From a virus, in IMG/VR virus record IMGVR_UViG_3300046794_000699, positions 1 to 62,124 of that record: a stretch of 62,124 nucleotides of DNA; one strand, 5' to 3'. The number at the start of each line of letters is the position of its first letter. Positions within the stretch are counted from its first letter, which is position 1. A program made the translations under genes and the position numbers. The notes under the pieces are model-generated. The model saw nothing but the letters and a program-made list of their open reading frames with translations, did not search any database and was not told the origin of the DNA. This document shows positions 2,531 to 20,900 of this stretch, one piece after another.

Positions 2531-3862
2531 TCAGAGCCTTTCTCTCAAGTCAGAAGGTGCTATATAATGCGTAGCTCTGCCAAGTTTTATTGGAAGAAAT
2601 ATACCCATTTTCTCCAACTCCCTTAACAAACGCCTTGCGGTATTTTCACTTACCCCGTACACATTTTGCACTGATTTAACCTTAAAGAGCCTCCCTGGTT
2701 CCTTAACTCCTTTCTTTATGAGATCCTTTTGAATGAAAGTTAGCCTATCTTTATATTTTGAGTTTTCCAGTATCTTAACTAATTCGTGGAATTCTTCAGT
2801 TTTCTCCCTAAGATATTCCTGCAACTCTTCAAATGCCGTAAGAATTATATTCAAATGAAAATCAATGAAGTATGTTAAATCACCATAATCTTTTTGCACA
2901 TATAAGTATGAAAGTCCGTAGTCTCTTGCCTGCTCTTTTATAACCTTACTGATTGATATGAACTCAAAAATGTCGTAACCATTTTTAAGCATAAACCAGT
3001 AAAAAATCGCTCTAGCAGTCCTGCCATTACCATCACGAAAAGCATGTTCATAGCCCATTAAAAAATGCAATGTTATCGCTTTAATAACAGGAGGTATGAA
3101 TCTTGAACCATCCTCACCATCATGCTTATCATTAGCAAACTCGCAAATTCTTTCTAGTCTGTCTTCTAGTTTTTCATGATCTGGGGGGTAGTATAAAGGA
3201 TCGTCATCATTACCTATATAAATGTCATTGCTAACCCTGAACTCACCCGGAATATTATCATTTTCAGATACTCCGATAGTGGCTACTCGGTGAAACTCCA
3301 ACATCAAATCGCGCGTAAGTGGCTCATTTTTTCTTCTATCTGCCAACCTTAGAAGCATGTAATTATTTAGTATCATCCTCTCATCAGATGTATTAGGCAC
3401 TAATTCCTCTTCAAGCATCTTTTTAGCGTCAGCTCTAGTAGTAGCGGCCCCTTCTAATTGGGCGCTAGTAATGGCTTCTTCCATTAGAAGGGAGGACACT
3501 AAATAATTTTCCTGAATACCATCAGACGCTTGAGTACCAGCAATTGCCGCAACTTTTCCCGCCCCGAGTTGAACAATCTTATGCAGTTTTGGCTCGAGTG
3601 AATCATGAATACAATAGTGAAATTCATCCCCATTTTTATCAGTTAAGCCAATTCCTTTTTTTGCGTTATACCTTTGAAACTTCACAGCAAGCCAGATCAG
3701 ATGAGCATTTTTACTAGGCACCCTCCACTTAAGCTGGCTCCAATGCAAATAGCGCCCCTGAGCATCTGCAATACCATAGTCGTTGAGGTAATCGAACATG
3801 TCATGGAAGTTTTCAGCGGTAAAATCCAGCTTAGGTGCCTGTTCTACAGGATGTTTTGCCAT
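2531..3862 (-). CDS. Fic family protein, class II
   Basis: Fic enzymes transfer AMP or a related nucleotide to target proteins. The catalytic motif HAFRDGNGRTAR is intact at residues 273-284. The inhibitory motif TSAQLEG at residues 132-138, before the core, places it in class II, where self-inhibition replaces a separate antitoxin. A C-terminal winged-helix-like part (about 385-440) may bind DNA. The gene is AT-rich compared with the tail genes upstream and has its own 90-base leader, suggesting separately acquired cargo. A toxin or abortive-infection role is possible but not shown. Confidence 0.85.
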   Translation of the reverse strand: MAKHPVEQAPKLDFTAENFHDMFDYLNDYGIADAQGRYLHWSQLKWRVPSKNAHLIWLAVKFQRYNAKKGIGLTDKNGDEFHYCIHDSLEPKLHKIVQLGAGKVAAIAGTQASDGIQENYLVSSLLMEEAITSAQLEGAATTRADAKKMLEEELVPNTSDERMILNNYMLLRLADRRKNEPLTRDLMLEFHRVATIGVSENDNIPGEFRVSNDIYIGNDDDPLYYPPDHEKLEDRLERICEFANDKHDGEDGSRFIPPVIKAITLHFLMGYEHAFRDGNGRTARAIFYWFMLKNGYDIFEFISISKVIKEQARDYGLSYLYVQKDYGDLTYFIDFHLNIILTAFEELQEYLREKTEEFHELVKILENSKYKDRLTFIQKDLIKKGVKEPGRLFKVKSVQNVYGVSENTARRLLRELEKMGIFLPIKLGRATHYIAPSDLRERL

Positions 3863-3949: not shown

Positions 3950-4138
3950 TTATCTCGGTGGGATCAGCCTCTTCCAATGGTAGGCCGGTGCGCTCATCCT
4001 CTGCCGATGCCGCTCCTTCGCTGCCAATGTCATAGCAACCCTTGTGCGTAGCTCCAGCATATCCTTCCTATCCAGGTTGACGCCGTTCTCTTTGGCCAGA
4101 TGGACAATGGTCTGTTCTATAGTTTTATGGTCTAGCAT
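3950..4138 (-). CDS. small hypothetical protein
   Basis: A 62-residue basic protein that I do not recognise. Its start overlaps the end of the upstream HGGxSTG gene by seven bases, so the two are probably co-translated at the tail of the element 1 tail operon. It is predicted helical and soluble, with a C terminus rich in R and K. Confidence 0.5.
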   Translation of the reverse strand: MLDHKTIEQTIVHLAKENGVNLDRKDMLELRTRVAMTLAAKERHRQRMSAPAYHWKRLIPPR

Positions 4139-4540: not shown

Positions 4541-4786
4541 TTAGATCCCGGAGGTTTGTGCCTTGCTGATCATCCTCTGGTTGTAGTTATGGACGGTAAT
4601 CAACTCCAGGAAATCCCACAGGTCCTCCGTACCATAGATAGTGTCGAGCTCGTACTTTGTGGCGAGCCTGAGTTTGTGCTCGAGGATGGCACTGATCGTC
4701 TTGGGAATGTTAACGCACTCAATCAAACCAGACGGACCATCACTCATCATTGGTGGAATGTCTAAGCGGCATCTGCGAAAAAAAAA
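4541..4786 (-). CDS. -1 frameshift extension of tail assembly chaperone
   Basis: This frame is open without stop from the T-run at 4778-4786, past the zero-frame TAG at 4762-4764, to 4541. It includes the 69-residue stretch starting MMSDG. The segment (DTIYGTEDLWDFLELITV, then HNYNQR) resembles the T part of phage G/GT-type tail chaperones, which is made by -1 slippage and binds the tape measure and tube subunits. Independent initiation at ATG 4750 or 4747 cannot be excluded. Confidence 0.6.
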   Translation of the reverse strand, partial: FFFRRCRLDIPPMMSDGPSGLIECVNIPKTISAILEHKLRLATKYELDTIYGTEDLWDFLELITVHNYNQRMISKAQTSGI

Positions 4787-5169
4787 TCGACATGCAGCTT
4801 CAGCGTTTCAGCTTTGAGCTTCAGGCGTGTGGCCACTTCTTCGATATCCGACTCAATAAGCGGACGTGTCACCTTCCTGTTACTCGGGTCTGGTACATAC
4901 TGAATACAGGACATCAATTCTTCCATCAACGGCTTGGCGTCCTCCGGGTTCATTTTGGAAAGCAGAGAGAAACCAAATGTGGCTAACCCCACCAGCCCCA
5001 TATCCTTCAAGTTATCAGGCACCTCAAAACCACTTTTTGACATACCCATAAACGCCCGGACAGCCCACCACTCGCCCTGAGAGGATGTCATCTCCTGGAT
5101 ATAAAACACCTTGCCCTCATCACGCCCCTTCGTACCACTAACTGTGTAGAACAATTCTTTGCGTGCCAT
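4762..5169 (-). CDS. tail assembly chaperone, G-like
   Basis: The 135-residue protein contains GKVFYIQEMTSSQGEWWAVRA in the middle and RPLIESDIEEVATRLKLK near the end, a pattern of phage tail assembly chaperones that coat the tape measure before tube assembly. It ends in FFFADAA, encoded by nine consecutive T, a typical slippage site. It lies downstream of hub and spike genes; in ordinary phages it precedes the tape measure, so the order here is permuted. Confidence 0.65.
   Translation of the reverse strand: MARKELFYTVSGTKGRDEGKVFYIQEMTSSQGEWWAVRAFMGMSKSGFEVPDNLKDMGLVGLATFGFSLLSKMNPEDAKPLMEELMSCIQYVPDPSNRKVTRPLIESDIEEVATRLKLKAETLKLHVDFFFADAA
4778..4786 (-). promoter_or_regulatory. candidate -1 ribosomal frameshift site (T9)
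   Basis: On the minus strand the codons GAT TTT TTT TTC contain the heptamer T TTT TTT in the correct zero frame. A -1 shift there leads into the open frame ending at 4541. Confidence 0.6.
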
Positions 5170-5203
5170 GTGGTCGTTTCTCCGTAATCGGCTTTATTGT
5201 TGT

Positions 5204-5566
5204 CTATTTGACGCTGCTGTAATCGCTCAGGTAGTTCTCTGGCTCTTCCAGGCAATTCCTGTAGTAAGGCATGATGAAATCAACGTCGCCTGTATCTCTG
5301 AAAAGGCGGCGGAAATTCTTATCCTTGTAGACTCGGTCAATAACGCTTTGAGCAAAGTGTTTACCCGCTTCAGGTGGGTTGGTTTCTGGCGCATAGGGCA
5401 GCAATTGCTGCTCTGACATTTCCTTATTGGGGTAAAAACCTGCCGCAGTGTTAGCAATGATGTGGAATGCCCGCGCATGCGACATGCAATCCTGCTGAAT
5501 TTCAACCTGCCCGGCATGAGCCAAGGCAGGGAGAGTTAACATGAATACGCAAAGTAGCTTTTTCAT
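5204..5566 (-). CDS. small exported protein inside tail operon
   Basis: The 120-residue product starts with a classical signal peptide (KK, a hydrophobic core, AHA cleavage near residue 19). The mature part is hydrophilic with two cysteines (near residues 28 and 106), which could form a periplasmic disulfide. Its start overlaps the stop of the preceding gene by four bases (ATGA), so it is translationally coupled to tail genes. A virion role is unlikely for an exported protein; superinfection exclusion or a periplasmic tail-assembly role are guesses. I do not recognise the family. Confidence 0.6.
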   Translation of the reverse strand: MKKLLCVFMLTLPALAHAGQVEIQQDCMSHARAFHIIANTAAGFYPNKEMSEQQLLPYAPETNPPEAGKHFAQSVIDRVYKDKNFRRLFRDTGDVDFIMPYYRNCLEEPENYLSDYSSVK

Positions 5567-6333
5567 TGTAATAACCCCACCAACTCCTTCACCGCAGCAT
5601 CTAACTGAGCTTTACCGCCCTGCCCCAATACAGCTTTCTCGACAGTTGTCGCAACCTTGGTGGCCGCTGCCGGGATTTGCTTCTTAATAGAGGCAATTGC
5701 CGCGTTCACTTCATCGAGAGTGGCATCTGGCGTCCCTGCGCGACCGCCATCCTGCGTAATGAGATTCGGGGATTTGGAGTCCTGACTCGGATCAACCTTA
5801 TTTGACTTGGCAGTGACCTGGACAGCCTGAAAAACCAAGTTCACCGTCAATAGCGTAATGCCATCTTGAGAGTTGACCTTGTAGTCGTATCGCGACAAGT
5901 CGTAGCTCTCGTAAGTGGTATCCGGAGTCTCTATGTCATAGATTTCAGTGCTGGATATCATCTTATCCAGAGTCGCTAAAAACTCAGTCCGGCTGCCGGT
6001 AGTGAAATTGGTGAGATTGGGGACTGAACCACTGAATCCCGTCCAACCTTCAAACACGACAATGGCGTTAATCTCAGCAGGCCGCTGGACCTTGTTGTAG
6101 CTCTCATAATCCCCCTTCTCAAGCGGAGCCGTCGTTATGGACGCTTCTTTCACGCGTGAGACGTCGATAAAACTGGTTGGCTCCAGAGCATAAGAACTTG
6201 CCTTACCTTTAGTCTTCGTCAACGGGCTGTAGTAGATGCCATAACTCGGGGATATGGAGCTGTTAATAACGGATAGAAGCCCGCCACCATTGATAGCGTT
6301 GAGCAATGTTGTTTCGTTTAACGATATGGCCAT
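5563..6333 (-). CDS. baseplate / distal-tail-like protein
   Basis: A 256-residue protein with a Dit-like core at about residues 40-175 (conserved beta pattern around SITTAPLEKGDYESYNKV and LLTVNLVFQAVQ), comparable to the element 2 protein at 30785-31381. Dit-type proteins form the ring between tail tube and hub. The last 60 residues, rich in A and K, look helical and have no counterpart in the prophage protein. It lies between the hub gene and the exported protein with tight spacing. Confidence 0.55.
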   Translation of the reverse strand: MAISLNETTLLNAINGGGLLSVINSSISPSYGIYYSPLTKTKGKASSYALEPTSFIDVSRVKEASITTAPLEKGDYESYNKVQRPAEINAIVVFEGWTGFSGSVPNLTNFTTGSRTEFLATLDKMISSTEIYDIETPDTTYESYDLSRYDYKVNSQDGITLLTVNLVFQAVQVTAKSNKVDPSQDSKSPNLITQDGGRAGTPDATLDEVNAAIASIKKQIPAAATKVATTVEKAVLGQGGKAQLDAAVKELVGLLQ

Positions 6334-6340
6334 AAGGTTC

Positions 6341-7189
6341 TTAGCTCCTCTGCTCGCCGACAGGGAAGACGAGCATGGAAGTTAACCATGCGCCCCCAGG
6401 CGTTTTAGTTGAAATGTTATGTTCCATCGTTATGATGGAGAAAAGACCGTTGGCAGCCTTGTTGCCGCTCTTAATATTGACGCGATTCAATCGACGCAAT
6501 TTGGGGCTGAACACCATGTTCACCAACACTCCCGAATTAGTTACCGTGGGGTATCCAATGAGACCTGTCTCTGGGGAGATTTCGGTTACGACATCACTGA
6601 GGAAATCCCCCTTCCAGGATATTTCTACCACCCCGTTATGGATGGTACAGCCAATGTCAGCCGCATCGACGCAATCCATAATCTGTTCAACGGCGCTACC
6701 ACACAGGTACATATCTTTCAAAATCACACTTACACCGTGATTTACGAATGTGTAGTTACATGCCTTGGCCAACACCTTGATCACCTCAGCAACGTCAACA
6801 CCGTTGATATAGCTATTGGGAGCCGCAGGCTTGACCCGGTAAAAATAAGTGCTGGTGGATTTGATGCGTAAAGGCACGTCCGGCATCTGGTTGTAATCGA
6901 CAAAGGCATCGTAAATTGTCCCTTGGTAAATCTGAGTTTGCTCGTTCTCCGCCCCCGCAAGTACAGAAACAACAGCATTGGTAATTCTTGGCGTACTGAA
7001 TCCCTGGCCGACTATCATCTGAGTCAGGTCCTGGTTAACGTTGAAAATCGAAAGATCGATTTGGCTTTGGCTCCTGCCGCCAGCATTACTCATTGACAGG
7101 GCGCAACGATAATCAGCCAGGCGAACCGGCTCCTTCTGGTTATAGAGTTTAAACTCGACGGTGATCAGCTTTTCAGAGTATGTGTTCAT
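6341..7189 (-). CDS. baseplate hub protein (gp27-like)
   Basis: The 282-residue product resembles the prophage hub at 29516-30460. Shared features include an N-terminal beta region and a C-terminal stretch SPETGLIGYPTVTNSGVLV facing QTGLIGMPEQTINGGINV in the prophage copy. Hub proteins connect the spike to the tube and form the initiation platform for tube polymerisation. The gene lies twelve bases downstream of the spike gene. Confidence 0.7.
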   Translation of the reverse strand: MNTYSEKLITVEFKLYNQKEPVRLADYRCALSMSNAGGRSQSQIDLSIFNVNQDLTQMIVGQGFSTPRITNAVVSVLAGAENEQTQIYQGTIYDAFVDYNQMPDVPLRIKSTSTYFYRVKPAAPNSYINGVDVAEVIKVLAKACNYTFVNHGVSVILKDMYLCGSAVEQIMDCVDAADIGCTIHNGVVEISWKGDFLSDVVTEISPETGLIGYPTVTNSGVLVNMVFSPKLRRLNRVNIKSGNKAANGLFSIITMEHNISTKTPGGAWLTSMLVFPVGEQRS

Positions 7190-7200
7190 TACAATTCCTC

Positions 7201-7854
7201 TTAAGCCACCGGCTTCCCAGTATTAGAACCACCAGACTCCACACCACCATGTTCATGAGCAGACAGTGGGATCCCCTTACCCGTCACTTCGCCAATAGCG
7301 GTAACATCACCACTCACACTTAAATTGCCCACCAGCTCGACCTCAGGAGCCTCAATGGTGACTTTTGATGGAGAGTGAATGACGATCCCTCCATTTTTGA
7401 ACCATAGGTATTGAGACGGCGTACCATTGAGAAAGCCGCCAACATACAGCCCATCAGAGAAGTGATTACGGCGCTTTGAACCAGGCGCACCAGCTTGACG
7501 GGTTTCTTTCACAACCGAGATATCCCGATCGGCGAATATCGCCATACCGATATCACCGACAACTGGATCAATCACCACAGCATTAACTCCACCCTGCAGG
7601 CGAAAATATGGAAGGTTGTAGATTTTGTTATGAGGCATCACTGCCCCATCCGCCTGGACCTGATGAACCATCGGTTTAACTGTCACCATACCGACTGGCG
7701 ACAGGGCGTCTGGCACGGTAATGGACTCCACAACTACCAGCCCAGAGAAGCACTTCTGGCCGATGAAACGCCGCATCATGGCAAAGAGCACGTTCTCTTC
7801 AGTAGCCATATCTTCGACACTCAACTCCCCCTGAAAGCTTTCCTGATCACTCAT
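7201..7854 (-). CDS. baseplate spike protein (gp138/gpV-like)
   Basis: A 217-residue protein with an N-terminal OB-like part, a beta-helical repeat at about residues 160-195 (VTIEAPEVELVGNLSVSGDV) and a tail end HEHGGVESGGSNTGKP. The prophage spike at 28762-29514 ends with HKHGGVETGGGQTGGP. The paired histidines are typical of metal-holding spike tips that pierce the outer membrane. The start overlaps the tape-measure stop by four bases. Confidence 0.7.
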   Translation of the reverse strand: MSDQESFQGELSVEDMATEENVLFAMMRRFIGQKCFSGLVVVESITVPDALSPVGMVTVKPMVHQVQADGAVMPHNKIYNLPYFRLQGGVNAVVIDPVVGDIGMAIFADRDISVVKETRQAGAPGSKRRNHFSDGLYVGGFLNGTPSQYLWFKNGGIVIHSPSKVTIEAPEVELVGNLSVSGDVTAIGEVTGKGIPLSAHEHGGVESGGSNTGKPVA

Positions 7855-9665
7855 GATTGCCCCCCGTTCATCGCGCCAATTAGCGGATTCTTACCCAGTT
7901 CCCGACGAGCATCGTGAACAATGCCTTGGGCGTCTGTAGCCTGGGTGTAGATATTCAGATTGCCGATATTGGTTTCGGTTTGAACATTGCCCAAACCTCG
8001 CGTATTCGTACCGCCCCAGGCTGCGCCTGCGCCTAACTGAATACCGCCTGCGATATCGTTGTCACTGACATATCCCTTCCCATTCTCATGGTTGATGATG
8101 CCCTTCATGAGGCTAAAAATTGTGGTCATGTCATCTGAGCTCAGTAACTCGTTAGCTCCCTTGCCGGTGGCTTTAACAAGTGACTGGATATAGGCAGCAA
8201 CGTTATTGTTGTCACCCTCCGGCGCATACTTTCTGACGATCTCGTCAATGGTGTCCGTGCCACGCTGGAAATACATCATGAGTTGGCGATAGAGCGCGGC
8301 AACCCCTTCCGTCATCGACTGGAATACAGCAAAGCGACCATTCGGGCCTTCTTCTTTCGTAGCTCCACGCTGCTTTGCATAATTGAGATTACCCGGGTTG
8401 TTATTACGCACACCGCGCGGCAATGCTTTGTCTGGAAGACGCTGCCAGTTACCTTGGGCATCTTTAGAAAGATGATTTTCACCGTTGAGAGAATCCCAGA
8501 ACTCCCCCCAGTCTTTTGCCGTACGGACGTTCTGGAACCACTGATTCTTACCAAAGGCCGCATTCATGGCTTTATCAATGTAAGGTTCGCTTAGGTAAGC
8601 CGCCGCGCCAGCAACCCCAGCTTTACCGATAATCCCGCCACCAGCTCTGAGGGCAATATTGTTCACCATCCCCGTCAGCGCCACACCAACACCCACGATG
8701 CTAGAGATGAGCCCTGATGCCCAACTGGCCAGAGAGAAGCCAATCAGGATTTTTATCGCGTTGCCCCATCCGCCCACAGCCTCGACGGCTTTCTCGATAT
8801 CTTTTTCAAGCTCATTAAAGAACGTGGTGATCTCCGCCTGGTGTGCGCTAACCCAGTCGCTGAATTTCCCCAAAAGCTTGTTCAGAGATTCCAGCACCGG
8901 CATTAAACCAATGAGGATTTTCTGCTTAGTCGCATCAAAGCGCGCAGCCAAGTCAGCAAGCTGCTGCTCGTACTTTTGCGCTTTCTTCGTCGACTCTTCA
9001 GTGGCGTTGGAAAGGTTGGTGTAATGCTTCACCTGCTGAGAAACAGACTGACCGCCTTGCGACAGCATATTCACCATTTCTGGGGATAAGCCGATATCAC
9101 GTCCATACATGGTGCGTGTTGCCGCATCCATGTTTTTAAAACGCTCTGCCAGCTCCAGATAGATGTCCTGGACGTTTTTGAATTCACCCTTGGCATTCTG
9201 CAGGTTGATACCAAGACGCCCTGTCAGACTGACCAGCCCTTCGCTCAGTTGACCTTTGTTGCGGAACAATGCCAAATCGTTCTGCAGGCTCAGCATTGAG
9301 CCACGAACCTGTTCTGCCGAAGCACCAAAACGGGAAAACGATTTCTGCCAGCCATCCAGTTCTTTCGAACTCATCCCTAAGGTCTGGGATGCATAACCGA
9401 GCTTGCTGAGTGAATCCGCTGTGCCGGTAATGAAGTTTTTCACTCCCTGGGCAGTTAACGCAACGCCTGCAAGAGCCAAGATTTCATTACGGATAGAACC
9501 AAAAAAGTTGGCAGCGCGTTTACCAGCAATCTCCATCTCCTTGCCGGTTTTGTCTGCGTCCTTTTTGGTCTTATCAAGACTTTCCCGAGCCTGCTCTTGC
9601 CCCTTTTTAAACTCAGAAGCATCAAGCCCAAGCGTGACAACTAAAGCGTCGATAATGGTCGCCAT
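7851..9665 (-). CDS. tail tape measure protein with lysozyme-like C-terminal part
   Basis: The 604-residue protein starts with a phage tape-measure pattern (DALVVTLGLDASEF, then coiled coil to about residue 50). It has hydrophobic helices at about 300-355 and a C-terminal domain beginning RGVRNNNPGN at 417-426, the virion-associated muralytic type. The prophage tape measure (31381-33393) has the same architecture with RGIRNNNPGN at 486-495 but is 66 residues longer. Tape measures set tail length, so this copy would specify a slightly shorter tail. It overlaps the small RHH gene by TAATG. Confidence 0.75.
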   Translation of the reverse strand: MATIIDALVVTLGLDASEFKKGQEQARESLDKTKKDADKTGKEMEIAGKRAANFFGSIRNEILALAGVALTAQGVKNFITGTADSLSKLGYASQTLGMSSKELDGWQKSFSRFGASAEQVRGSMLSLQNDLALFRNKGQLSEGLVSLTGRLGINLQNAKGEFKNVQDIYLELAERFKNMDAATRTMYGRDIGLSPEMVNMLSQGGQSVSQQVKHYTNLSNATEESTKKAQKYEQQLADLAARFDATKQKILIGLMPVLESLNKLLGKFSDWVSAHQAEITTFFNELEKDIEKAVEAVGGWGNAIKILIGFSLASWASGLISSIVGVGVALTGMVNNIALRAGGGIIGKAGVAGAAAYLSEPYIDKAMNAAFGKNQWFQNVRTAKDWGEFWDSLNGENHLSKDAQGNWQRLPDKALPRGVRNNNPGNLNYAKQRGATKEEGPNGRFAVFQSMTEGVAALYRQLMMYFQRGTDTIDEIVRKYAPEGDNNNVAAYIQSLVKATGKGANELLSSDDMTTIFSLMKGIINHENGKGYVSDNDIAGGIQLGAGAAWGGTNTRGLGNVQTETNIGNLNIYTQATDAQGIVHDARRELGKNPLIGAMNGGQS

Positions 9666-9835
9666 TACCTAGCCTCCAGAACCAGCGCCTTGTTCATCAG
9701 CTCACGGGCTATGGCGTGGATACTTGGAGCCAACCCAAGTGGCGAACTCCTCCGTTCCCGCTCTTGGATTTCACGCAGAATCGCTATCTGCTCGGTACTG
9801 AGTAGTACTGGCTTCATATTATTTTTAGTTGTCAT
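9665..9835 (-). CDS. small RHH-like protein leading the tail operon
   Basis: A 56-residue protein from ATG 9835 with AAGG upstream. It contains LSTEQIAILREIQERERR then SIHAIARELMNKAL, fitting a ribbon-helix-helix or short HTH fold. The stop codon overlaps the tape-measure start (TAATG), so they are co-translated. As first gene of the operon, with a palindrome at 9928-9944, it may be its autoregulator. Confidence 0.6.
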   Translation of the reverse strand: MTTKNNMKPVLLSTEQIAILREIQERERRSSPLGLAPSIHAIARELMNKALVLEAR

Positions 9836-9927
9836 AGCCACCACCTTACTGATTATTTATACAGCAATCATTATTTCACATACAGGGATGATTACAATTT
9901 ATATTGCATTTTTTGAAATGATATTTT

Positions 9928-9944
9928 TCGATCGTTACGATCGA
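9928..9944. promoter_or_regulatory. operator-like palindrome upstream of tail operon
   Basis: TCGATCG-tta-CGATCGA is a perfect inverted repeat with 7-bp arms in an AT-rich leader, 93 bases before the first gene of the element 1 tail operon. Its placement fits a repressor site controlling the operon promoter. Confidence 0.5.
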
Positions 9945-10161
9945 GATTGCTGGTGGTTTTTTTTGGAATTGGCCCGGCAGAAGAAAAGAAAAATACACTA
10001 CTTAAGTGCAAGCCAAACCTTGGTGGTAAAGACTTTATAGACGAGCGGAGATAGCGTTTCTAAGGCCGTCATGGCAAAGCGAAAAGCTCTGGAGCGACTT
10101 TTTTTACTTGAACCTGGTAAAGGTCGGGTAGAAGCAAACTAAATATAGGGGGAGCAGGCCA

Positions 10162-10195
10162 GCCCGGACATCATAGAAATTACCGGGCCTTTTTC
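10162..10195 (+). terminator. intrinsic terminator, plus strand
   Basis: GCCCGG at 10162-10167 pairs with CCGGGC at 10183-10188, followed by CCTTTTTC. No clear plus-strand gene precedes it. The 300 bases from 9845 to 10160 hold the tail-operon leader and otherwise nothing I can identify. Confidence 0.5.
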
Positions 10196-10203
10196 AAAAC
10201 GAG

Positions 10204-10878
10204 TTACTTGTTAAAATTACTGAGTACCTTGTACCGAATCGACTGATTGGTAGCCTCTAATACTTCTAGCCTCGCCCCTTTATAACCAATGACGTTTGAC
10301 TCAGAGAGATCATACTCGACATCATTGTTGAAGGCTGGCCTCGCCATGCTGCTACTAGACTCGCGGTAACCAATATTGATTTTTTTACCAACCCTACCGT
10401 TATAAAGCAATGTTTGCTGGAAATCGCTTTCGGCACTCATGTTCAACTTTATACGTTGGAACGGCATGCCATTTTCGCATGTTGAAACGGAGAAAACCGT
10501 TATAACACACAGCGTTTGAGAGCCTTTCTTGGCCATAACAGCTTGCCACATATCAGCCAGCACTGCCTTATCCACTCCCCCCGAAGAGGCCCCAGGAGTC
10601 GGCATATAAAACTCATTCTGCCCATCCTCTCCAATTTTCTTGAACTCGCCAGGAGTTACTGTATACCCCCAAGAAACTCGGGCAGGAGCAGTGACCTTAA
10701 TACCATCCAATTGCGCAGAAATCCCCTGTCTTAACAAAGAATCCCCCACATAGGCTGTATTGGTACTACCGATAGGTGGCTCGCTAATTTGCTGTGTAGC
10801 TGGTGTGTAGTTGTATTTTGGTGATGTGCATCCTGCAAGCACGAGAGCTGCGGCACATACAATAGTCATTTTTTTCAT
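10204..10878 (-). CDS. lipoprotein of unknown function
   Basis: From ATG 10878 the 224-residue product has a lipoprotein signal ending LVLAGC (lipobox, acylated Cys17). The open frame extends 46 codons upstream, but that part is not signal-like. The mature part is polar, rich in Ser and Gly, with two cysteines near residue 125-135. No family is recognised. It is a separate minus-strand gene upstream of the tail operon and may act at the cell envelope, for example in phage exclusion. Confidence 0.6.
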   Translation of the reverse strand: MKKMTIVCAAALVLAGCTSPKYNYTPATQQISEPPIGSTNTAYVGDSLLRQGISAQLDGIKVTAPARVSWGYTVTPGEFKKIGEDGQNEFYMPTPGASSGGVDKAVLADMWQAVMAKKGSQTLCVITVFSVSTCENGMPFQRIKLNMSAESDFQQTLLYNGRVGKKINIGYRESSSSMARPAFNNDVEYDLSESNVIGYKGARLEVLEATNQSIRYKVLSNFNK

Positions 10879-10889
10879 TTTAAGGTTAT

Positions 10890-11180
10890 CCCCAAAGACC
10901 AGTAACAAGCCGTCCCATCGAAAAGTACACGCTGGACAAGGCAATGAAAAAACCGCCCAACGAGCAAGCGGAAAAGTGATGATAAGACGATTTGCAAGCG
11001 TTACTAAGGTAGCCACTAGGGAGCTATCGGCCTATATGTGACAAAGTCAGGTTATCTCCAGCATGAAACGCAAACAAGGGTTACGGACAGTTACATACTG
11101 AAATGAGATTTTCCTCAGACAAATAGAGTTCCAAAGCGAGGTAAGATATCAAGAAAGGTTGGCTTTGAAACTGGACGGTG
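10890..11180. other. intergenic region
   Basis: About 290 bases between the divergently transcribed lipoprotein gene and the small plus-strand gene at 11184. Presumably it holds both promoters; no operator, RNA or coding frame stands out. Confidence 0.3.
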
Positions 11181-11183
11181 GGT

Positions 11184-11390
11184 ATGTATTCGAGGATTGT
11201 TGATCTTGATGATGATATTTATCTAGCCATTGGGCGTGCTGTTTTTGAAGTGATTAAAGTCGGTAACGAAATCAATACTGCTTCAGTAATGGATGCGATA
11301 GAAGGTTTCATCGAGCACCAAATGGGTAGCGGGTATGAAGTGTCTATGGCTGACGACGCACTTGATTTAATAGCTTACTTATCAACCTAA
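11184..11390 (+). CDS. small acidic hypothetical protein
   Basis: From ATG 11184 the product is 68 residues (a GTG start at 11178 would add two). GGACGGTGGG upstream can act as ribosome binding site. The sequence is acidic and helical (SRIVDLDDDIYLAIG, then ADDALDLIAYLST). No family is recognised. It is one of few plus-strand genes in element 1. Confidence 0.5.
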   Translation: MYSRIVDLDDDIYLAIGRAVFEVIKVGNEINTASVMDAIEGFIEHQMGSGYEVSMADDALDLIAYLST

Positions 11391-11474
11391 GAATAAAGCA
11401 CTTCTCGAGATTTTTTGGATATAAAAAATCCAGCCCGGTGGCTAGGTTGACAATCACTGTGTATGCGATCAGTA

Positions 11475-11888
11475 TTAACGCATTGGTAGGAGCTTAAGAA
11501 GGTCAGTAGCAGCGGCTAGCGCCGGAGCAGTCTCACCAATGGTGATAAGTCCATACTCACCTACTTTTGATTTTAGACCTTCATATGAAGTTGCGTAATA
11601 GTATGTTTTATAAGAGTCAATAAGCCTCATAGATTTGGTTTTCCCTAACAGGTCCGAAATCATTAATATTTGATCTTTGTTAAATTTAGTAGTGTAGAAA
11701 TCATCAGCCTTAATTGAGTCTATTTGCTTCATTATCTCAATTCTGACAGGTGAGACTAGGGCGTTATATTCTTTCCTTTTGTCTCGATTTATTGCCGCCC
11801 GATGACCAATGAAATGCCCAAGAGCAAACGTAACAACCGTCCACCCAAGAGCTATAAGAGGTAAAAATGTTAGATATTCTGCTGGCAT
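11475..11888 (-). CDS. membrane-anchored hypothetical protein
   Basis: A 137-residue protein with one membrane helix at about residues 8-27 and a basic cytoplasmic part with helices to residue 135. AAGGA lies nine bases before the ATG. The stop codon of the frameshifted membrane gene upstream abuts this start (TAA-ATG), implying an operon. The base composition is AT-rich. A 33-residue plus-strand gene overlaps its start. No family is recognised; exclusion or toxin roles are only guesses. Confidence 0.5.
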   Translation of the reverse strand: MPAEYLTFLPLIALGWTVVTFALGHFIGHRAAINRDKRKEYNALVSPVRIEIMKQIDSIKADDFYTTKFNKDQILMISDLLGKTKSMRLIDSYKTYYYATSYEGLKSKVGEYGLITIGETAPALAAATDLLKLLPMR

Positions 11889-11968
11889 TTAATGAATTCC
11901 TTCGCCATTACTCATGGACGCTATTCCCTCTTTTCGGATTAGTGATTGGTTACCTAAGCGCCAAATAA
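11867..11968 (+). CDS. 33-residue hydrophobic peptide overlapping antisense
   Basis: ATG 11867 follows AGAGG with six-base spacing. The product begins MLDILLAFNEFLRHYSW, is hydrophobic throughout its second half and ends in a lysine, as small membrane peptides do. It overlaps the start of the minus-strand gene 11475-11888 by 22 bases. It may be a real small membrane protein or a coincidence. Confidence 0.35.
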   Translation: MLDILLAFNEFLRHYSWTLFPLFGLVIGYLSAK

Positions 11969-12112
11969 GCCACATCCAACTCATCACCAACACAGCAAAG
12001 GTAAACCCTATGGCATGACGTCCTGCATGACGAATGGCTCACACCCAGAGTTCATGACCATCATAAAAGCAAAGGTAATAAACAAGGTTAGCTGTAGGGA
12101 ATACTTATCCAT
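11889..12112 (-). pseudogene. frameshifted small two-helix membrane protein
   Basis: From ATG 12112, behind GGGGAG, the frame encodes a hydrophobic start (MDKYSLQLTLFITFAFMMVM) and stops after 34 residues. A -1 shift near 12040 opens a frame with a second membrane helix (GFTFAVLVMSWMWLIW) that ends in TAA touching the next ATG. Length 224 is not a multiple of three, so one indel explains both halves. Programmed frameshifting is less likely, since no slippery run is seen. Confidence 0.5.
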
Positions 12113-12151
12113 TACAGGCTCCCCTTAAGTTGCCAGTACACCCAGCCGCAA

Positions 12152-12316: not shown

Positions 12317-12485
12317 GATTTGCCCTCAATGGGTCCATAGATTTGTTTTATGCCTACTATGCTCAGCAGGCGTTCACATAGCTATACCAAAGTGATCATC
12401 ATTTGATCAATGCCATATAAACAAAAAGCCTGCTAAAAAACAGGCCCAGTCATATAGTTAGCTAATATTTGTTAAGTCATATGAT

Positions 12486-13297: not shown

Positions 13298-15421
13298 TTA
13301 CTCTTCTGCTTGTTTCTCTTCGGGCATGTAGTGCAGGACATAGACGTTAACCTGTTGGCCATTCACTCTTGGAGACTTCCTCTGGTAACCACGTCCACTG
13401 CTTGGCGGTGTGAGCATGCCAGACTCCAGCAAAACCTTGGCAAAGTGTTTGGCATTGAAACCAGCAGCAATCTCCTTCTCAAACGCAGATTTGAAGGTAT
13501 GGAACACCATCTTATCTGTGTCGTGTTTACCCCGCTCCCTGTAGCCAGCCATATCGCGAATCACCAGACTCTGCGGGTCATAAGGTAATGGAGCGAACCG
13601 GCTCATACCAAAGGCGCTTAAGAAGGCTTCAGCTTGGTCAACAATTTGCTGGTGCTCTTTGTTGCCCGTGCCGAACTCCTTCACCCACGCGTTAAAGCTG
13701 TACTGGATAGCATCCTGGCAAGTCTTGTCATCCCATCCAGTAATAACGCGCCCAAAGATTAAAGCTGCCTCAAGTACGGCGAACCTCGCGGCTACACGAT
13801 GAACTTGCTCACCATAATCACTAGGGACTAATGACCGCCAGCGCTCCTCAGCAGCCCTTACAGCTTCGATAGCTTCTTGCTGATGGTTGGCCAGATATTT
13901 AATCCATTCGCGCCCTGCCGCTCCGTAGTGGTTCTGATAGGCATCTTTGAGCGCATCGGCATGTTGTTTGCCAGTATGGTATCCATTGAAGCGTAGAGCC
14001 TTGCTTAATGGAATATTCAGCAAGCGTACCAACTGGCCAGCTTTGATTCGCCGCCCTGCAGACGCAATGAAAGTCTCCATATCCATTTCACCGGTACTGA
14101 TCGCCACCGTGCGCCAGCGTTTCAAGTCACGGTTTCCCCCTTCCTTGGCCCCCTGGAGCTTCCCTACACCGTTAAACAGGGCATAGGCTGACTGAGCTAC
14201 TCCTGCTGGGTCTGCGCCTTGTCCGACCTCATCCAGTGGCATCAGAGCATCGTTGTGAGCTGCGGCCTCATTAGCTAAACCAAGAGCAGTTCCGTACCAG
14301 GTCAGGCGTAGTAAGTCAGGATTACCGTAAAGGCTACTAGCTACATTGGCAGTAGTGGTTTTCCCCGCACTAGACTGCTCGTAGAAATGAATGCCAAACC
14401 CATCGGTACCAGACAAACCAATAAGCGGAGCGGCTAGTGAGGCTGCGATACCTGTCATCATAGAGTAATTGCCAAAAGCCAGGCGAGCCACGTTATCACG
14501 CCAGCTATCTGCTGAACCTTTGATGGTATAACCTGCAGCGGCTGAACTTCGGCCATTGAATAACACTGGCATTACCGGTGTGCCGATGATTTCGCCATCC
14601 GGCATGATGTATGCCCCGCACTGCCAACCAGTCGCATGCGCTACACGCCAAACCTCTCGAGAGCCACTACGCTGTAGCCAGTCAGCCAGGATGGCGCGTA
14701 GTGAACCCGTAGTAACGACGTTCACGCCACCAGCCTTGAGAGCTCTCCAGCCCTCACGCTCACCAATATCAGCCAGGGGGATAGCTTGTGTCGTTTCAGT
14801 TTCAGAACCCTGAGCCAGCCAGCGGAGGATCATGTATTGGTCTTTATCATCACGCCCAATGCCAACCACATCCAATGGCGAGCATAACCAACGTTCGTTA
14901 CTGGTGATTTTGCCGCTGTCGTTGTCTACCTTCGAGGTGACGTAGAACACGCCATCCTCTCGGCTGATTACACGTGGTTTTAACGGGTCCTCATCCGGTT
15001 GAGCATCGTTACCTCCGTGAATCACTTTTAGCTGTACAGCGATCCCTTCTCCACGCTCAGCCTCCGCTTTAAGTCGAGGAAGCTGATTCGTCCAATCCTC
15101 CAGTAATTCGTAGCTTTCGGAGTAGAGATACGCCTGAGTCACACCGGCTAATGCCAAACGTGTCGCAATGGCCGTAACCTGCAACTCACTTAGCCTCCCT
15201 GCACGATAGACACGCACAAAGCGACGCCCCTCATCAACGATACGGATAGAGCCGAGGGAAGACAGCTCCTTATCAGACAGAACAACAGGAGGAGTCGTAT
15301 CACGAGCTGGATTCCCCGCCTGCCAATGCTTCGCATGGATCCACGCATCAGAGCCTGCAAAGATGACCGCCTCAGTGAAGGTATCCACTGGAATATGCTT
15401 AACATTCGGAGCGTTTCTCAT
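13298..15421 (-). CDS. DUF927 primase/helicase-type replication protein
   Basis: A 707-residue protein. The central DUF927 ATPase region (about 165-460) carries a Walker A-like QSSAGKTT at residues 349-356 and an acidic DEVGQ at 397-401. The N-terminal 130 residues resemble the toprim-like part of satellite primases. Such proteins, like P4 alpha, open and replicate satellite DNA from iterons. The start overlaps the upstream stop (ATGA), placing it last in a run of coupled genes. Iteron cluster B lies just after its stop. Confidence 0.8.
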   Translation of the reverse strand: MRNAPNVKHIPVDTFTEAVIFAGSDAWIHAKHWQAGNPARDTTPPVVLSDKELSSLGSIRIVDEGRRFVRVYRAGRLSELQVTAIATRLALAGVTQAYLYSESYELLEDWTNQLPRLKAEAERGEGIAVQLKVIHGGNDAQPDEDPLKPRVISREDGVFYVTSKVDNDSGKITSNERWLCSPLDVVGIGRDDKDQYMILRWLAQGSETETTQAIPLADIGEREGWRALKAGGVNVVTTGSLRAILADWLQRSGSREVWRVAHATGWQCGAYIMPDGEIIGTPVMPVLFNGRSSAAAGYTIKGSADSWRDNVARLAFGNYSMMTGIAASLAAPLIGLSGTDGFGIHFYEQSSAGKTTTANVASSLYGNPDLLRLTWYGTALGLANEAAAHNDALMPLDEVGQGADPAGVAQSAYALFNGVGKLQGAKEGGNRDLKRWRTVAISTGEMDMETFIASAGRRIKAGQLVRLLNIPLSKALRFNGYHTGKQHADALKDAYQNHYGAAGREWIKYLANHQQEAIEAVRAAEERWRSLVPSDYGEQVHRVAARFAVLEAALIFGRVITGWDDKTCQDAIQYSFNAWVKEFGTGNKEHQQIVDQAEAFLSAFGMSRFAPLPYDPQSLVIRDMAGYRERGKHDTDKMVFHTFKSAFEKEIAAGFNAKHFAKVLLESGMLTPPSSGRGYQRKSPRVNGQQVNVYVLHYMPEEKQAEE

Positions 15422-16459: not shown

Positions 16460-16869
16460 GAGTAAATGATATATATGCTGTTACTATTCGGCACTACAAG
16501 CTGCTGACTCTGCTCCAAAGCACTATTTGATTCCTTATAAAAATCCCGATCAGGCTGTACACCTCCCCAGGGGGTCGGATTTGAAATCCGTCCCTTTTTT
16601 ATGGACTCCAGAAACTCCCTGCTCGTATTGGGCATGAAACTCGACAAACAGACATTTGCCGCTTCACCTTTTTTTATGGCCTCCGAAAACTCAATGCATG
16701 GCGCACGATATTTTTCCGTCCCCCACCCTCGCGTAGTGACAGCAATAAAATCTTCGTCACACTCAACAACTGTGATGTAAACCAACTTTATCAACGGACT
16801 AAAAAACTTAGGAATTCTTAAGATCACGCCCCCAGAAAACCAGCTGCTGATGTCATCAATTGTCATCAT
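16460..16869 (-). CDS. uncertain frame with two EFxEsIKKG repeats
   Basis: ATG 16869 overlaps the antirepressor stop by fourteen bases. The frame encodes MMTIDDISSWF, then a beta-rich part, then IEFSEAIKKGEA and SREFLESIKKGRI, about 25 codons apart. The two repeats match DNA repeats at 1733-1948. It runs on in frame into the Icd-like gene through a stretch that looks like the antisense of the YlcI gene, so the true end is unknown. It may be an ash-family gene. Confidence 0.35.
16593..16692 (-). repeat. tandem copies of the CCTTTTTTATGG repeat
   Basis: Two copies, 16593-16617 and 16667-16692, differ at few positions and resemble copies at 1861-1883 and 1924-1948. All four are read in the same sense on the minus strand and lie 63-75 bases apart in each pair. 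Confidence 0.5.
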
Positions 16870-17707
16870 TCTCGCTCTCCAGGCGCTTGGTTAACCAACG
16901 TTGAGATAGACGCATTAACTCAGCTTTACGGAGCTCGTAGTCCATACCCATATCAATCAGAGTGATGTTGGTGCTTTCCAGGTAGGAGAAGTGTTCTAGC
17001 TGTTCGGCGCTCATTTTGTCCCGAGGGGCACCATCTAATCCGTTAGCCAACGCCCACTGCTTGGCGGTTATACCTCCCAGGACGATACGAGCAATCATGT
17101 TGCTTTCGTTAGTGTAGTGATTCTGAGAGGTTTGCTTGCCCTGTTCGGCACGAGCAGCCTCTAAGGCTGTACACATCGCTTTAAACATATTGGCTGCCCC
17201 AATGCGCGTCTTAAGCTGGTGGCGTAAACGTGCGGCTACCTCTGGAACGCTGCGGTATAACTCTTCCTCACACTGGATGAAGTAACGGCGAATGGCTCGG
17301 CCCTGGTCGTTGCGCTCAACCATAGCCAGCTCTTTAGCCATGTTCAAAGTGATAGCGTAATCTTTGCTACGTCTGTCGCCACCCCGAGATGTTTGCACTC
17401 GTGCCGACATTACTTGATCGATATTTGAACTTTGAAACACCGAAATGGGTGTATCAGACTCAACGTAATCAACCGCGCTTTTGAAATCGTATTCTTCCAC
17501 TCGCGCATTAAACCAGCTGGAAAAGACGCGCCCCACTCCCAGCGATTTATGCAATGCCTTGGCGCTCACGATATTACTTTCACGCCCACCTATCTGACCG
17601 GAAATAACCGGCACCAGAGATGCAAAGTCATTGCTGTTAATAATGCCGAGGCTTTCTTTGGGGTGAGTTTGGCCCCGGCCAGTATTGGCCGTATTTTTCA
17701 TAGTCAT
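16856..17707 (-). CDS. AntA/AntB-type antirepressor
   Basis: A 283-residue protein. Residues 48-140 fit the AntA/AntB domain: SLGVGRVFSSWFNARVEEY, then GGDRRSKDYAITLNMAKELAMVER, then GRAIRRYFIQCEEE. The C-terminal half is helical and unrelated to KilAC as far as I can see. Antirepressors of this type inactivate phage repressors, so the satellite may use it to sense or induce a helper. It follows AlpA and one unknown gene in the same operon. Confidence 0.75.
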   Translation of the reverse strand: MTMKNTANTGRGQTHPKESLGIINSNDFASLVPVISGQIGGRESNIVSAKALHKSLGVGRVFSSWFNARVEEYDFKSAVDYVESDTPISVFQSSNIDQVMSARVQTSRGGDRRSKDYAITLNMAKELAMVERNDQGRAIRRYFIQCEEELYRSVPEVAARLRHQLKTRIGAANMFKAMCTALEAARAEQGKQTSQNHYTNESNMIARIVLGGITAKQWALANGLDGAPRDKMSAEQLEHFSYLESTNITLIDMGMDYELRKAELMRLSQRWLTKRLESENDDN

Positions 17708-17721: not shown

Positions 17722-18144
17722 TTAGGCGGCGGTGAAAGCGTCTGGGTACAAGGTCAGGATGTTGGCTATGTCGCTTTGAGAAAGGCCGTGATAGCCACCA
17801 GCAGCGGCGTTATGGTTAACCAACTGGATCACGCGCAGAACATCGGCACGGCTCACAAAGCGATAGCGGAAATGGCTACCGATGCCGTCCGGGTTCTTCT
17901 CGTCGATACGCTCCAGTTGAATATCCAGGCGGCGTTCCAGCTCGCTGGCGTAGTTGCGGCCAGATGAGAGGCGGCAATACTTGAGAATGTCATTCTCAGT
18001 CCAGCCATTGACGCCAGTTTTCAGCATGTACACACGAGCGCGGTGCTTCTTTGGCGCTGGCTTGATGGTGGGGGTGGCGCTATTATCAGAGGCGCCAACC
18101 TTCTGACTAGCCGCCTGCTGTACGGGGCGGTTTTTCATTTCCAT
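17722..18144 (-). CDS. conserved satellite protein, unknown function
   Basis: A 140-residue protein starting in the AlpA stop codon (TAATG). The N-terminal 40 residues are low-complexity and basic. The rest has WTENDILKYCRLSSGRNYASELERRLDIQLERI and SHFRYRFVSRADVLRVIQLVN, a winged-helix-like pattern. The position after alpA recalls conserved genes of P4-like islands. No function is known to me. Confidence 0.55.
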   Translation of the reverse strand: MEMKNRPVQQAASQKVGASDNSATPTIKPAPKKHRARVYMLKTGVNGWTENDILKYCRLSSGRNYASELERRLDIQLERIDEKNPDGIGSHFRYRFVSRADVLRVIQLVNHNAAAGGYHGLSQSDIANILTLYPDAFTAA

Positions 18145-18341
18145 TACGCCACCTCCCCACGAGATTCAGCAATGCGTTGATTGATCCACTCATTTACCTC
18201 GCTCTCAACGAAAGCAATTGAACGAGTGCCAACCTTCACGGCTGATGGGAAACGCTTCTGGCTGATAAGGCGATAAATCCATGCCTTGCTGTAGCCAGTA
18301 CGGCGCTGGACTTCGGTAAAGCGGATAAGTGTATTTGTCAT
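18144..18341 (-). CDS. alpA: AlpA family regulator
   Basis: A 65-residue AlpA-type protein: RFTEVQRRTGYSKAWIYRLI, then KRFPSAVKVGTRSIAFVESEVNEWI. Family members (P4 Vis, AlpA) activate or repress satellite promoters and assist excision. It is the first gene of the operon alpA, unknown, antirepressor, with a 190-base upstream region carrying TTTGGAAGT repeats. Confidence 0.85.
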   Translation of the reverse strand: MTNTLIRFTEVQRRTGYSKAWIYRLISQKRFPSAVKVGTRSIAFVESEVNEWINQRIAESRGEVA

Positions 18342-18531: not shown

Positions 18532-19410
18532 TTAGGGTTCAAGCTTGGTAATGTTTTGTTCAATAGCTGACTTCAAGAGATCAGTTAGAGCTTTGCTGGT
18601 TATTTCAGTTCCCTTACCATAATCATTTATAGCCTTTCTTGCTGCTTCAGCCACGGCTGACTTGTTGATTTTACCCCCCCTCGCATACTTCCCACCAGAT
18701 TGTTCCAAAGCAACAGCCATGCCTGAGATAAGCATGAGGGCGGTATCTTTTCCAGCAAAATCATTCCATTTTGTTGTTACTGGCTCACTAAGTTTGTTTT
18801 TTTCTTCAAATTCCTCTATCTCTGCCAGGAATTTATCAAGCTCTTTTTGAATAAGCTTTTTATACCAATCATATCGCTTTTGAGCTGCGGGGAGTGCATG
18901 TGCGAAATCGTCAGGTATTGGCAGGTTATTTTCAATGAGGAAGCATAACAACTCTGTTAGTTTGAAATAAAAAGCGCCATACCCACAAGAACTGATGCCT
19001 TCGTTTTCCAACCAATATTGACCGGCATTGTCTGGGTTCGGGTCTTCATAGTAATCGCGCCCTTTAGCAATATATCTAAGAAATGAAGTACTGACAGTCT
19101 GAAACCCAAGATCAAATTTAAACCCTAATGCTGGGTAGTAATCATAAATCTTGAACTCCAATCCATTACTAGGGTGTTCTCCTTTAAAAGACTCAAGGGC
19201 ACGAACTAAAAGAATAGCAATTTCATCAAATTTACGATTATTTGCTTTAGCCAAAGCACTTATTGCCCTCTCGAAATGAATAGCTTCAGCTCTTTCTTTA
19301 TCAAGCTCATCAAAATTAAATTTCCGCACTCGCCACCTCACGCCCTCTAAGTCTTGGCGGCTATGCCAGCCCGTAGAGGTGTACGGGGTTTCGGGGATCA
19401 GCCTAGACAT
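18532..19410 (-). CDS. cargo gene of unknown function between int and alpA
   Basis: A 292-residue soluble protein with no family that I recognise. It has a mixed N-terminal domain, a central part with many aromatic residues (YDYYPALGFKFDLGF), and a helical C-terminal half with a charged coiled-coil-like run (about 190-215) and KINKSAVAEAARKAI. It is AT-rich next to its neighbours. In P4-like satellites, positions beside int are hotspots for single-gene anti-phage cargo, so a defence role is a reasonable guess, not shown. Confidence 0.5.
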   Translation of the reverse strand: MSRLIPETPYTSTGWHSRQDLEGVRWRVRKFNFDELDKERAEAIHFERAISALAKANNRKFDEIAILLVRALESFKGEHPSNGLEFKIYDYYPALGFKFDLGFQTVSTSFLRYIAKGRDYYEDPNPDNAGQYWLENEGISSCGYGAFYFKLTELLCFLIENNLPIPDDFAHALPAAQKRYDWYKKLIQKELDKFLAEIEEFEEKNKLSEPVTTKWNDFAGKDTALMLISGMAVALEQSGGKYARGGKINKSAVAEAARKAINDYGKGTEITSKALTDLLKSAIEQNITKLEP

Positions 19411-19474
19411 AGCCTTATTCTTTTACTGTATACCAAAGTCTACTACCGTCCATAGGCACTGTCTATTTGTACAG

Positions 19475-20689
19475 TTACGCACTCTTACCGAATGCGCCGT
19501 GAACCACATTATCGCCACGTTCCAGGCTATCCATATAGTCGGCATACCACTGGAGCATGTCCCGGCGGCCATCCAAATACTGAGCATGGTTGTAGGTGCC
19601 GCGGATAGAGTTTTTATCAACGTGCGCCAGCTGAGTTTCAATCCAAGCGGTGTTATAACCCTGCTCATGCAAAATGGTGCTCATCGTGTGGCGGAAGCCG
19701 TGACCGGTGGCACGTCCGTGGTAGCCAATACGTTTTATCACCTGGTTAATACTTGCTTCGCTCATTGGCTTGGTGCTGTCGTTCCTCCCTGGGAAGACTA
19801 ATTTGAAGCGACCAGTTATTTCTTGAAGCTGGTGGAGAAGCGCCAGAACCTGCTCTGAAAGCGGCACCAAGTGCGGTCTACGCATTTTCATTCTGCTTTT
19901 AGGCACTTCCCAGAGCCCTTTATCCAAATCGAACTCAGCCCACTCAGCAGCACGGAGTTCAATCGTGCGTACGCCTGTTAGCAGAAGTAAGCGTGTCGCT
20001 ATTTTGGTGACAGAACTACCGGTGTAATCATTGAGGCTCTGTAGAAACTCAGGGAACTCTGAGGCGACCAGGTGGGGATAGTGTTTATGCTTCTGGATAG
20101 CCAGCGCACCGGCTAATTCGCTGGCAGGGTTATTCTCCGCTCTTCCGGTAACGATGGCATAGCGGAAAGTCTGACTGCAGGCCTGCCGGATCTTGCGCAT
20201 CTTATCGAGAACGCCGCGCTTTTCTAATTTGCGTAGCGCCTCCAGAACTTCGAGAGGTTTAATATCAGCGACTGGCCGTCTGCCGATGTAAGGGAAGATA
20301 TCTTTCTCGAAAGACTCCATCAGGTCTTCGGCATAACCTTTGGACCAGTTAGACTCTTTATAGGCATGCCATTCTCTGGCCAGCGCTTCGAAGGTGTTTT
20401 CAACGCTAACCTTCTTTGCCTGTCTCTCGGTTTTCTTTTCTTCCCCCGGATCTCCACCAGCGGCCAGGAGACGTTTCGCTTCATCTCGTTTGGCCCTGGC
20501 ATCAGCGAGAGATACGTCTGGGTATACCCCCACGGCTAAAAGCTTCTCTTTGCCAGCAACACGGTATTTCAAGCGCCAATAGCGGGCACCGGTAGGGTTA
20601 ACCAGTAAATAAAGCCCACCGCCATCAGAGAGCTTGTAAGGCTTATCCTTCGGCTTGGCAGTATCAACTTGCCGGGCATTGAGCTTCAT
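19475..20689 (-). CDS. int: P4-type tyrosine integrase
   Basis: From ATG 20689 (MKLNARQVDTAKPKDKPYKL) the product is 404 residues; a GTG at 20704 would add five. The N-terminal DUF4102 arm-binding domain spans about 1-90. The catalytic residues R241, K268, H330, R333, H356 and nucleophile Y366 are all visible. It recombines the satellite with the 3' end of tRNA-Arg. It reads away from the att site at 20855-20900, as in P4. It appears intact. Confidence 0.9.
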   Translation of the reverse strand: MKLNARQVDTAKPKDKPYKLSDGGGLYLLVNPTGARYWRLKYRVAGKEKLLAVGVYPDVSLADARAKRDEAKRLLAAGGDPGEEKKTERQAKKVSVENTFEALAREWHAYKESNWSKGYAEDLMESFEKDIFPYIGRRPVADIKPLEVLEALRKLEKRGVLDKMRKIRQACSQTFRYAIVTGRAENNPASELAGALAIQKHKHYPHLVASEFPEFLQSLNDYTGSSVTKIATRLLLLTGVRTIELRAAEWAEFDLDKGLWEVPKSRMKMRRPHLVPLSEQVLALLHQLQEITGRFKLVFPGRNDSTKPMSEASINQVIKRIGYHGRATGHGFRHTMSTILHEQGYNTAWIETQLAHVDKNSIRGTYNHAQYLDGRRDMLQWYADYMDSLERGDNVVHGAFGKSA

Positions 20690-20690
20690 C

Positions 20691-20846
20691 TGGGGGTATC
20701 TCACTTTATTGAACCTGGGAATACCCCCAAATGTACCCCCACTTGAGTGTAGATTTCAATAGACGTTAGGAGACATTGGTAGACTGAGATTCTTTGGGAA
20801 GACTAGTATTTCTGGGGATGAGTGGACTTTAGTAGACGTTGGGAGA
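20691..20846. repeat. integrase-side att arm with repeats
   Basis: Between int and the att core lie TGGGGGTA (20691-20698, inverted), the pair of TACCCCCA octamers 4 bp apart (20722-20741), and TAGACGTTrGGAGA twice (20760-20773 and 20833-20846). These are candidate arm-type sites. The whole stretch matches the fossil at 51-300. Confidence 0.55.
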
Positions 20847-20854: not shown

Positions 20855-20900
20855 TGGTACGCCCTACAGGGCTCGAACCTGTGACCTACGGCTTAGAAGT
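20855..20900 (-). tRNA. partial tRNA-Arg(TCT), displaced 3' half (att site)
   Basis: On the minus strand the sequence runs from CTTCTAAG (anticodon loop, TCT) through the variable loop and a T-arm ACAGG-TTCGAGC-CCTGT to AGGGCGT-A-CCA. The 5' half is absent: sequence beyond 20900 does not continue a tRNA. This is what remains of the tRNA 3' end when a later phage integrates and supplies its own copy. It is the shared border of elements 1 and 2. Confidence 0.8.

Follow-up and report, generated by a model that had tools for sequence, protein, structure and literature searches.

Why would a phage satellite carry the genes that start a tail and pierce the cell envelope, and no gene for a tail tube or a capsid? 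The question is raised by a block of genes at positions 4541-9844 of a viral DNA stretch of 62,124 nucleotides (positions 1 to 62,124 of IMG/VR record IMGVR_UViG_3300046794_000699), which was analysed whole and is referred to here as the window. The block lies in a satellite of the Gram-negative phage-inducible chromosomal island (GN-PICI) type, and the explanation that we favour, with a probability of about 60%, is that it is a satellite-owned DNA-ejection cassette that is built into the virions of a helper phage. As judged from its gene families, the satellite keeps an intact tail-nucleating, tube-interior, envelope-puncturing and DNA-path set behind an RHH gene, and related satellites hold, at the same place, sets from other phage classes that are predicted to be functionally equivalent. 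What the tape measure protein (TMP), the hub, spike and Dit-like proteins and the P22-type ejection proteins share is a job (tail start, envelope piercing and DNA path) and not a structure.

The block is composed of eight intact open reading frames (ORFs) in a single minus-strand operon, in the order RHH, TMP, spike, hub, Dit-like protein, exported protein, tail assembly chaperone and -1 extension (Table 1). The TMP matches phrog_2013/2276 in PHROGs with an E value of 1e-74, the spike has phmmer matches to several solved phage spikes, and the hub matches Pam3 hub gp19 and Phi92 gp137 in the PDB; the RHH protein has no Pfam or PHROG match. The nearest homologs are found in PA-1-like myophages (Pantoea phage PA-1 and a prophage of E. 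coli 1506), with identities of 59% for the chaperone, 49% for Dit, 44% for the spike, 42% for the TMP (over its full length against PA-1) and 30% for the hub. The chaperone gene ends in a run of nine T (GAT TTT TTT TTC), at which a -1 slip brings the extension into frame ('...LDIPPMMSDG'). The slippery site GATTTTTT and a similar extension start occur in nearly all the related phages examined, PA-1-like myophages included, and these phages retain a short ORF at the extension position, so that the predicted -1 frameshift of the chaperone is supported. Family hidden Markov models (HMMs) detected no sheath, tube, wedge, baseplate J, portal, protease or capsid gene in window positions 1-21 kb. A preliminary description of the window, made from the letters alone, had proposed an operon with these eight genes, a chaperone with a frameshift extension, and no accompanying tube, sheath, wedge or capsid gene; all of this was borne out, the ORFs being present and intact on the minus strand and the family matches strong in Pfam and PHROGs.

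The surroundings of the block are those of a GN-PICI. A DUF927 gene lies 3.4 kb upstream of the block, and farther upstream come AntA, AlpA and a tyrosine integrase, all on the minus strand, which gives the order Integration-Bro-Replication-Late described for these elements by Tommasini et al. 2023 (PMC10111431). AlpA beside a tyrosine integrase together with DUF927 (PF05930, PF00589, PF06048) is the gene combination of the class. Regarding its usual size of about 10-20 kb, an attachment (att)-like tRNA 3' end marks the right side at 20.86 kb, and a left copy was not found in the window. A PICI screen published in 2018 admitted elements with no phage structural or lytic genes; the window has tail genes and EcCIMP1, an accepted PICI, has ejection genes, and PICIs that have capsid genes are also listed in that paper. 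The scan of the satellite ORFs turned up no sid, psu or delta family, and profiles of PA-1 type detected none of the genes of capsid-forming PICIs (cf-PICIs), namely capsid, portal and large terminase (TerL), in window positions 1-21 kb. The preliminary description was thus right to call the element a satellite that has no sid- or psu-like genes, while its label 'P4-like' has been dropped in favour of the four-zone layout: the element is a GN-PICI-type satellite with a tail block in its Late zone.

A deleted PA-1-like prophage was considered as the source of the block, and was rejected. The genes of PA-1-like phages run sheath, tube, chaperone, extension, TMP, Dit, plug, hub, spike, wedge and J; the order in the window differs from that of every phage relative examined, and there are no flanking tail remnants. 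A second satellite, in an uncultured Erwinia genome (L088), has RHH-TMP-spike-hub-Dit-exported in the identical order, with identities to the window of 57% for RHH, 70% for TMP, 72% for the spike, 75% for the hub, 62% (62-65%) for Dit and 66% for the exported protein, and is flanked by matching satellite genes (DUF927, AntA, AlpA and integrase). Because the gene order has been rebuilt and is kept in an independent satellite, the window block is not a deleted prophage. In a comparison of the two satellites every frame is open, TMP, spike, hub, Dit and exported protein have dN values of 0.17-0.26, and dS is saturated; by these estimates the RHH-TMP-spike-hub-Dit-exported block is under purifying selection. 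Trees of Dit, TMP and hub each place the two satellites together with full support, separate from the phages. The block had been described as unlike a decaying prophage, a view upheld by the intact frames, the order shared with L088 and the purifying selection. Two checks proposed with it had the same outcome: the block does occur with satellite genes elsewhere, and no relative examined has a block of this order with the missing tail genes in it. Searches of IMG/VR returned no relative with the hub as a single query, and 80 loci with no second satellite for a Dit alignment, nearly all of them with sheath and tube genes and a few being short fragments. The Erwinia contig has a PA-1-like prophage a few kilobases beyond the satellite integrase. 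In the window, positions 21121-62124 hold a separate myophage prophage (DUF3383 sheath, KPP10-type tube) that abuts the integrase end of the satellite; as a source of the block it was discarded, its TMP, Dit, chaperone, hub and spike being only 16-25% identical.

The closest comparison with an experimentally studied element is EcCIMP1, a PICI from E. coli MP1. It is the one element compared here whose mobilisation by a helper has been demonstrated: it excises with the P22-like podovirus Kapi1 and is transduced by it (PMC11773190). Its backbone is 65-77% identical to that of the window (Table 1), and its RHH gene (48% identical to the window) is directly followed by homologs of DUF2824(gp14), gp7, gp20 and gp16, an ejection set of the helper's class, where the window has a myovirus tail initiator. 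Kapi1 has DUF2824(gp14)-gp7-gp20-gp16 in the identical order. Identity between EcCIMP1 and Kapi1 is 83% for gp14, 57% for gp7, 26% for gp20 and 24% for gp16, the alignments of gp20 and gp16 covering part of each protein; gp20 and gp16, the SieA-sensitive parts, therefore differ most. SieA blocks P22 injection through gp16 and gp20, and in P22 whole ejection sets can be swapped with retention of function, single swaps of gp16 or gp20 fail, and partial escape from SieA is seen with one foreign set (PMC10883804). The authors of the EcCIMP1 study noted the similarity to DNA-transfer proteins and proposed a packaging role (PMC11773190); an ejection role would fit the families better.

In order to see how common such modules are, we annotated the zone downstream of DUF927 in 60 DUF927-relative loci, in a survey of 392 genomes sampled evenly across the bacterial family to which the Erwinia of L088 belongs. 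A tail-tip or DNA-ejection module is present in 20 of the 60 satellites, two of these modules being degraded (L181, L214). They comprise myovirus TMPs (L177, L191 and L231, with a fragment in L214), myovirus hub and/or spike genes with or without Dit and plug (L180, L204, L206, L223), siphovirus TMPs (L184, L196, L198, L209, L227 and L229, with a broken copy in L181), P22-type ejection proteins (L179, L187, L197, L228) and partly annotated virion-enzyme proteins of phrog_1044 type (L185). E. coli G5 provides a further hub-spike satellite. The P22-type proteins are fused in L197 (positions 11202-15383, an ORF of 1393 aa, gp7-gp20-gp16-like) and in L187 (positions 5634-8909, 1091 aa, gp20-gp16-like), and the ejection genes of these two elements have no nucleotide match in E. 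coli. The Late-zone modules often follow the same RHH gene: 15 of 18 RHH-positive elements have a module, against 8 of 45 others, and the link holds when three elements picked for having a module are left out (12/15 vs 8/45, p=2e-5, shared descent uncorrected). Ejection and tail-tip modules in the Late zone are a general pattern across satellites. The preliminary description had recognised the satellite-owned tail-initiator set and missed this pattern, with its siphovirus TMPs and P22-type ejection proteins.

The survey also bears on the idea that helper genes recombine at random into the Late zone and stay there as bystanders or short-lived remnants. GN-PICIs are documented to capture late genes (PMC10111431), and two of the 20 modules are degraded. 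Random capture does not account for the strong bias towards ejection and tail-tip genes, for a window module conserved at 57-75% with dS saturated, or for a rebuilt gene order and an RHH linkage that holds, and we regard it as quite unlikely. A scan of 143 other Late-zone ORFs in the same orientation shows small terminase (TerS), Q antiterminator, lysis and DUF2824 as the recurrent phage families, and neither library shows capsid, portal, tube or sheath among the 25 commonest families; these lists cover those 25 families, so that rare exceptions may exist, and the cf-PICI-like L232 was left out of the scan. The Late zone of L232 (positions 9905-16259) has portal and TerL genes, and the element looks like a cf-PICI.

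Satellite TMP, hub or ejection proteins could instead be decoys, incompatible subunits that block or slow helper tails for defence or control of the helper. Tail assembly is a known target, with Tab hitting the TMP and Tai systems lying downstream of pri in PICIs (PMC10884400, PMC11364771). A decoy, however, requires a single protein and no conserved function, whereas the sets are complete and full length, with a lytic domain, a frameshift site and membrane-facing parts, and those of P22 type are complete operons; furthermore, a satellite that blocked all tails could not spread. A decoy role is therefore unlikely. Tab and Tai resemble the window block as mobile-element genes acting on tail assembly, and are described as inhibitors rather than virion components.

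The TMP sets tail length in general, and satellites resize capsids. A satellite TMP that made helper tails shorter or longer, to fit a small capsid, is conceivable, and shortening had been raised in the preliminary description with a comparison of TMP lengths as its test. At 604 aa the window TMP falls in the main range of related phages (mostly about 590-750 aa), the L184 TMP has 1136 aa, exactly as that of Midgardsormr38, and the podovirus-type modules contain no tail length protein. Because TMP length is normal, resizing is unlikely, and we give it hardly any credence. Almost as improbable, in our judgement, is that the cassette, chiefly through its exported protein, excludes phages from the resident cell and has no part in virions. 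An exported protein does accompany the set, and similar ones follow the spike in phages: related myophages (L028 12655-13023, L070 12743-13120 and others) have a variable exported two-cysteine protein directly after the spike gene, which may be a superinfection exclusion factor. Exclusion leaves the TMP, hub, spike and chaperone unexplained, as it does the modules that have no exported gene.

The ejection cassette remains our preferred explanation, with hybrid tails on the helper's tube as the leading model. Upon helper induction the cassette would be expressed late, and helper tails or capsids would take up its proteins during assembly. The resulting hybrid virions would combine the helper's capsid, tube and receptor-binding parts with the satellite's injection parts. 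The latter would change the passage of DNA across the periplasm and inner membrane of the recipient. The likely benefit would be the avoidance of exclusion or defence systems that recognise the helper's TMP or ejection proteins, because the satellite must re-enter cells that carry the helper prophage. Selection by exclusion is plausible because SieA, HK97 gp15 and SNIPE act on TMP or ejection proteins: HK97 hybrids with the HK022 tube and TMP escape gp15, and SNIPE recognises the TMP (PMC10883804, PMC13190303). The exported protein may, rather speculatively, be the cognate exclusion factor. Somewhat short of an even chance, in our estimate, is the wider proposal that a large share of GN-PICIs use interchangeable, helper-class-matched ejection cassettes to replace the helper's injection proteins, and so reset inner-membrane entry, evade exclusion and membrane defence, and re-enter helper lysogens.

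Helper class offers some agreement with this explanation, as six of eight genomes with myo-type satellites have a hub gene elsewhere than in the satellite, against one of 11 others, there as a partial match (p=0.006). Several points weigh against it. Matching prophages are not in excess in the genomes of siphovirus-TMP or P22-type satellites, a comparison that used one genome per species, so that a missing helper says little. The neighbouring prophage of the window is too distant to be an obvious helper. Nothing ties a tail or an ejection protein to the DNA that is packaged, so helper virions would share the parts and a private benefit would be blunted. The L088 block has no chaperone, and the divergence between satellites and phages falls inside the range seen between phages. 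The exported protein, whose AF2 model is all-alpha and confident (pLDDT 84), has no structural match in the PDB or BFVD; a T4 spackle-like lysozyme inhibitor had been considered for it and was set aside. Finally, incorporation in particles, late expression, helper identity and benefit are all inferred from genes.

Regarding the remaining features of the satellite, the 62-aa phrog_7271 protein is kept in the Late zone of 16 elements and is possibly a small packaging or regulatory factor. A Fic-domain protein is encoded in the distal accessory region (window 2531-3862, minus strand), with a homolog in satellite L191 (9810-11171). A direct repeat of 133 nt (89% identity; window 53-185 and 20608-20740) places a second integrase start at the left edge, which suggests tandem integrated elements.

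Table 1. Position and assignment of the satellite features in the window.
Feature	Position	Strand	Family or remark
62-aa protein of satellite Late zones	3950..4138	-	phrog_7271
-1 frameshift extension of chaperone	4541..4750	-	phrog_3976 (1e-18)
Tail assembly chaperone, 135 aa, T9 slippery run at end	4762..5169	-	phrog_1932 (2e-45)
Exported two-cysteine protein, 120 aa	5204..5566	-	signal peptide read from sequence
Dit-like tail protein, 256 aa	5563..6333	-	PF21821; phrog_1830 (8e-56)
Baseplate hub, 282 aa	6341..7189	-	PF22759; phrog_196 (1e-50)
Membrane-puncturing spike, 217 aa	7201..7854	-	PF18946 GpV Apex; PF18352 'xxxxx' N-domain
TMP, 604 aa, C-terminal lytic-type domain (GVRNNNPGNLNY)	7851..9665	-	phrog_2013/2276
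RHH/Arc-like small DNA-binding protein, first operon gene	9665..9844	-	GTG start; assigned by sequence only
DUF927 replication protein (Replication zone)	13298..15421	-	PF06048; 77% to EcCIMP1, 75% to L088
AntA/Bro-network protein (Bro zone)	16856..17707	-	PF08346; 66% to EcCIMP1
AlpA regulator	18144..18341	-	PF05930; 75% to EcCIMP1
int-alpA RNA, between int and alpA	19344..19413	-	RF02996, 38.1 bits
Satellite integrase (tyrosine)	19475..20704	-	PF13356/PF22022/PF00589; 67% to EcCIMP1 integrase
tRNA 3'-end-like att sequence, adjoins int	20857..20899	+	near-identical sequence beside Erwinia satellite int

The theft of tails and the theft or remaking of capsids by satellites are already known. 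The cf-PICIs are alike in that the satellite encodes part of the virion and borrows the rest, and differ in that they make heads and borrow tails, whereas the window satellite, by its gene content, would supply injection parts and borrow head and tube. PA-1-like myophages have the whole virion set, plug, tube, sheath and wedge included. With the GN-PICIs of Tommasini et al. 2023 (PMC10111431) the element shares zone order, AlpA, AntA/Bro, the DUF927 primase and captured late genes. Its authors emphasise capsid genes and long clusters of captured genes and found the lambda-type Pfam families Phage_min_tail and Phage_tail_L in none of the satellites, and the available part of the paper contains no description of a recurrent ejection or tail-tip module with an RHH gene. 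Nor did the open-access literature searched, which excludes subscription papers, yield a report of satellites with TMP or ejection modules. That PICIs capture late genes is not new in itself; what appears new within this literature is an ejection module that recurs, is class-matched and has an RHH gene of its own. If a satellite did control the injection step, this would be a new lever. Passage of the inner membrane is decided by TMP and ejection proteins, which are targeted by SieA, HK97 gp15 and SNIPE, and a different set could decide which cells can be entered, helper lysogens among them. If true, this would also explain Late-zone genes that are labelled 'hypothetical' or 'packaging' across Enterobacteriaceae.

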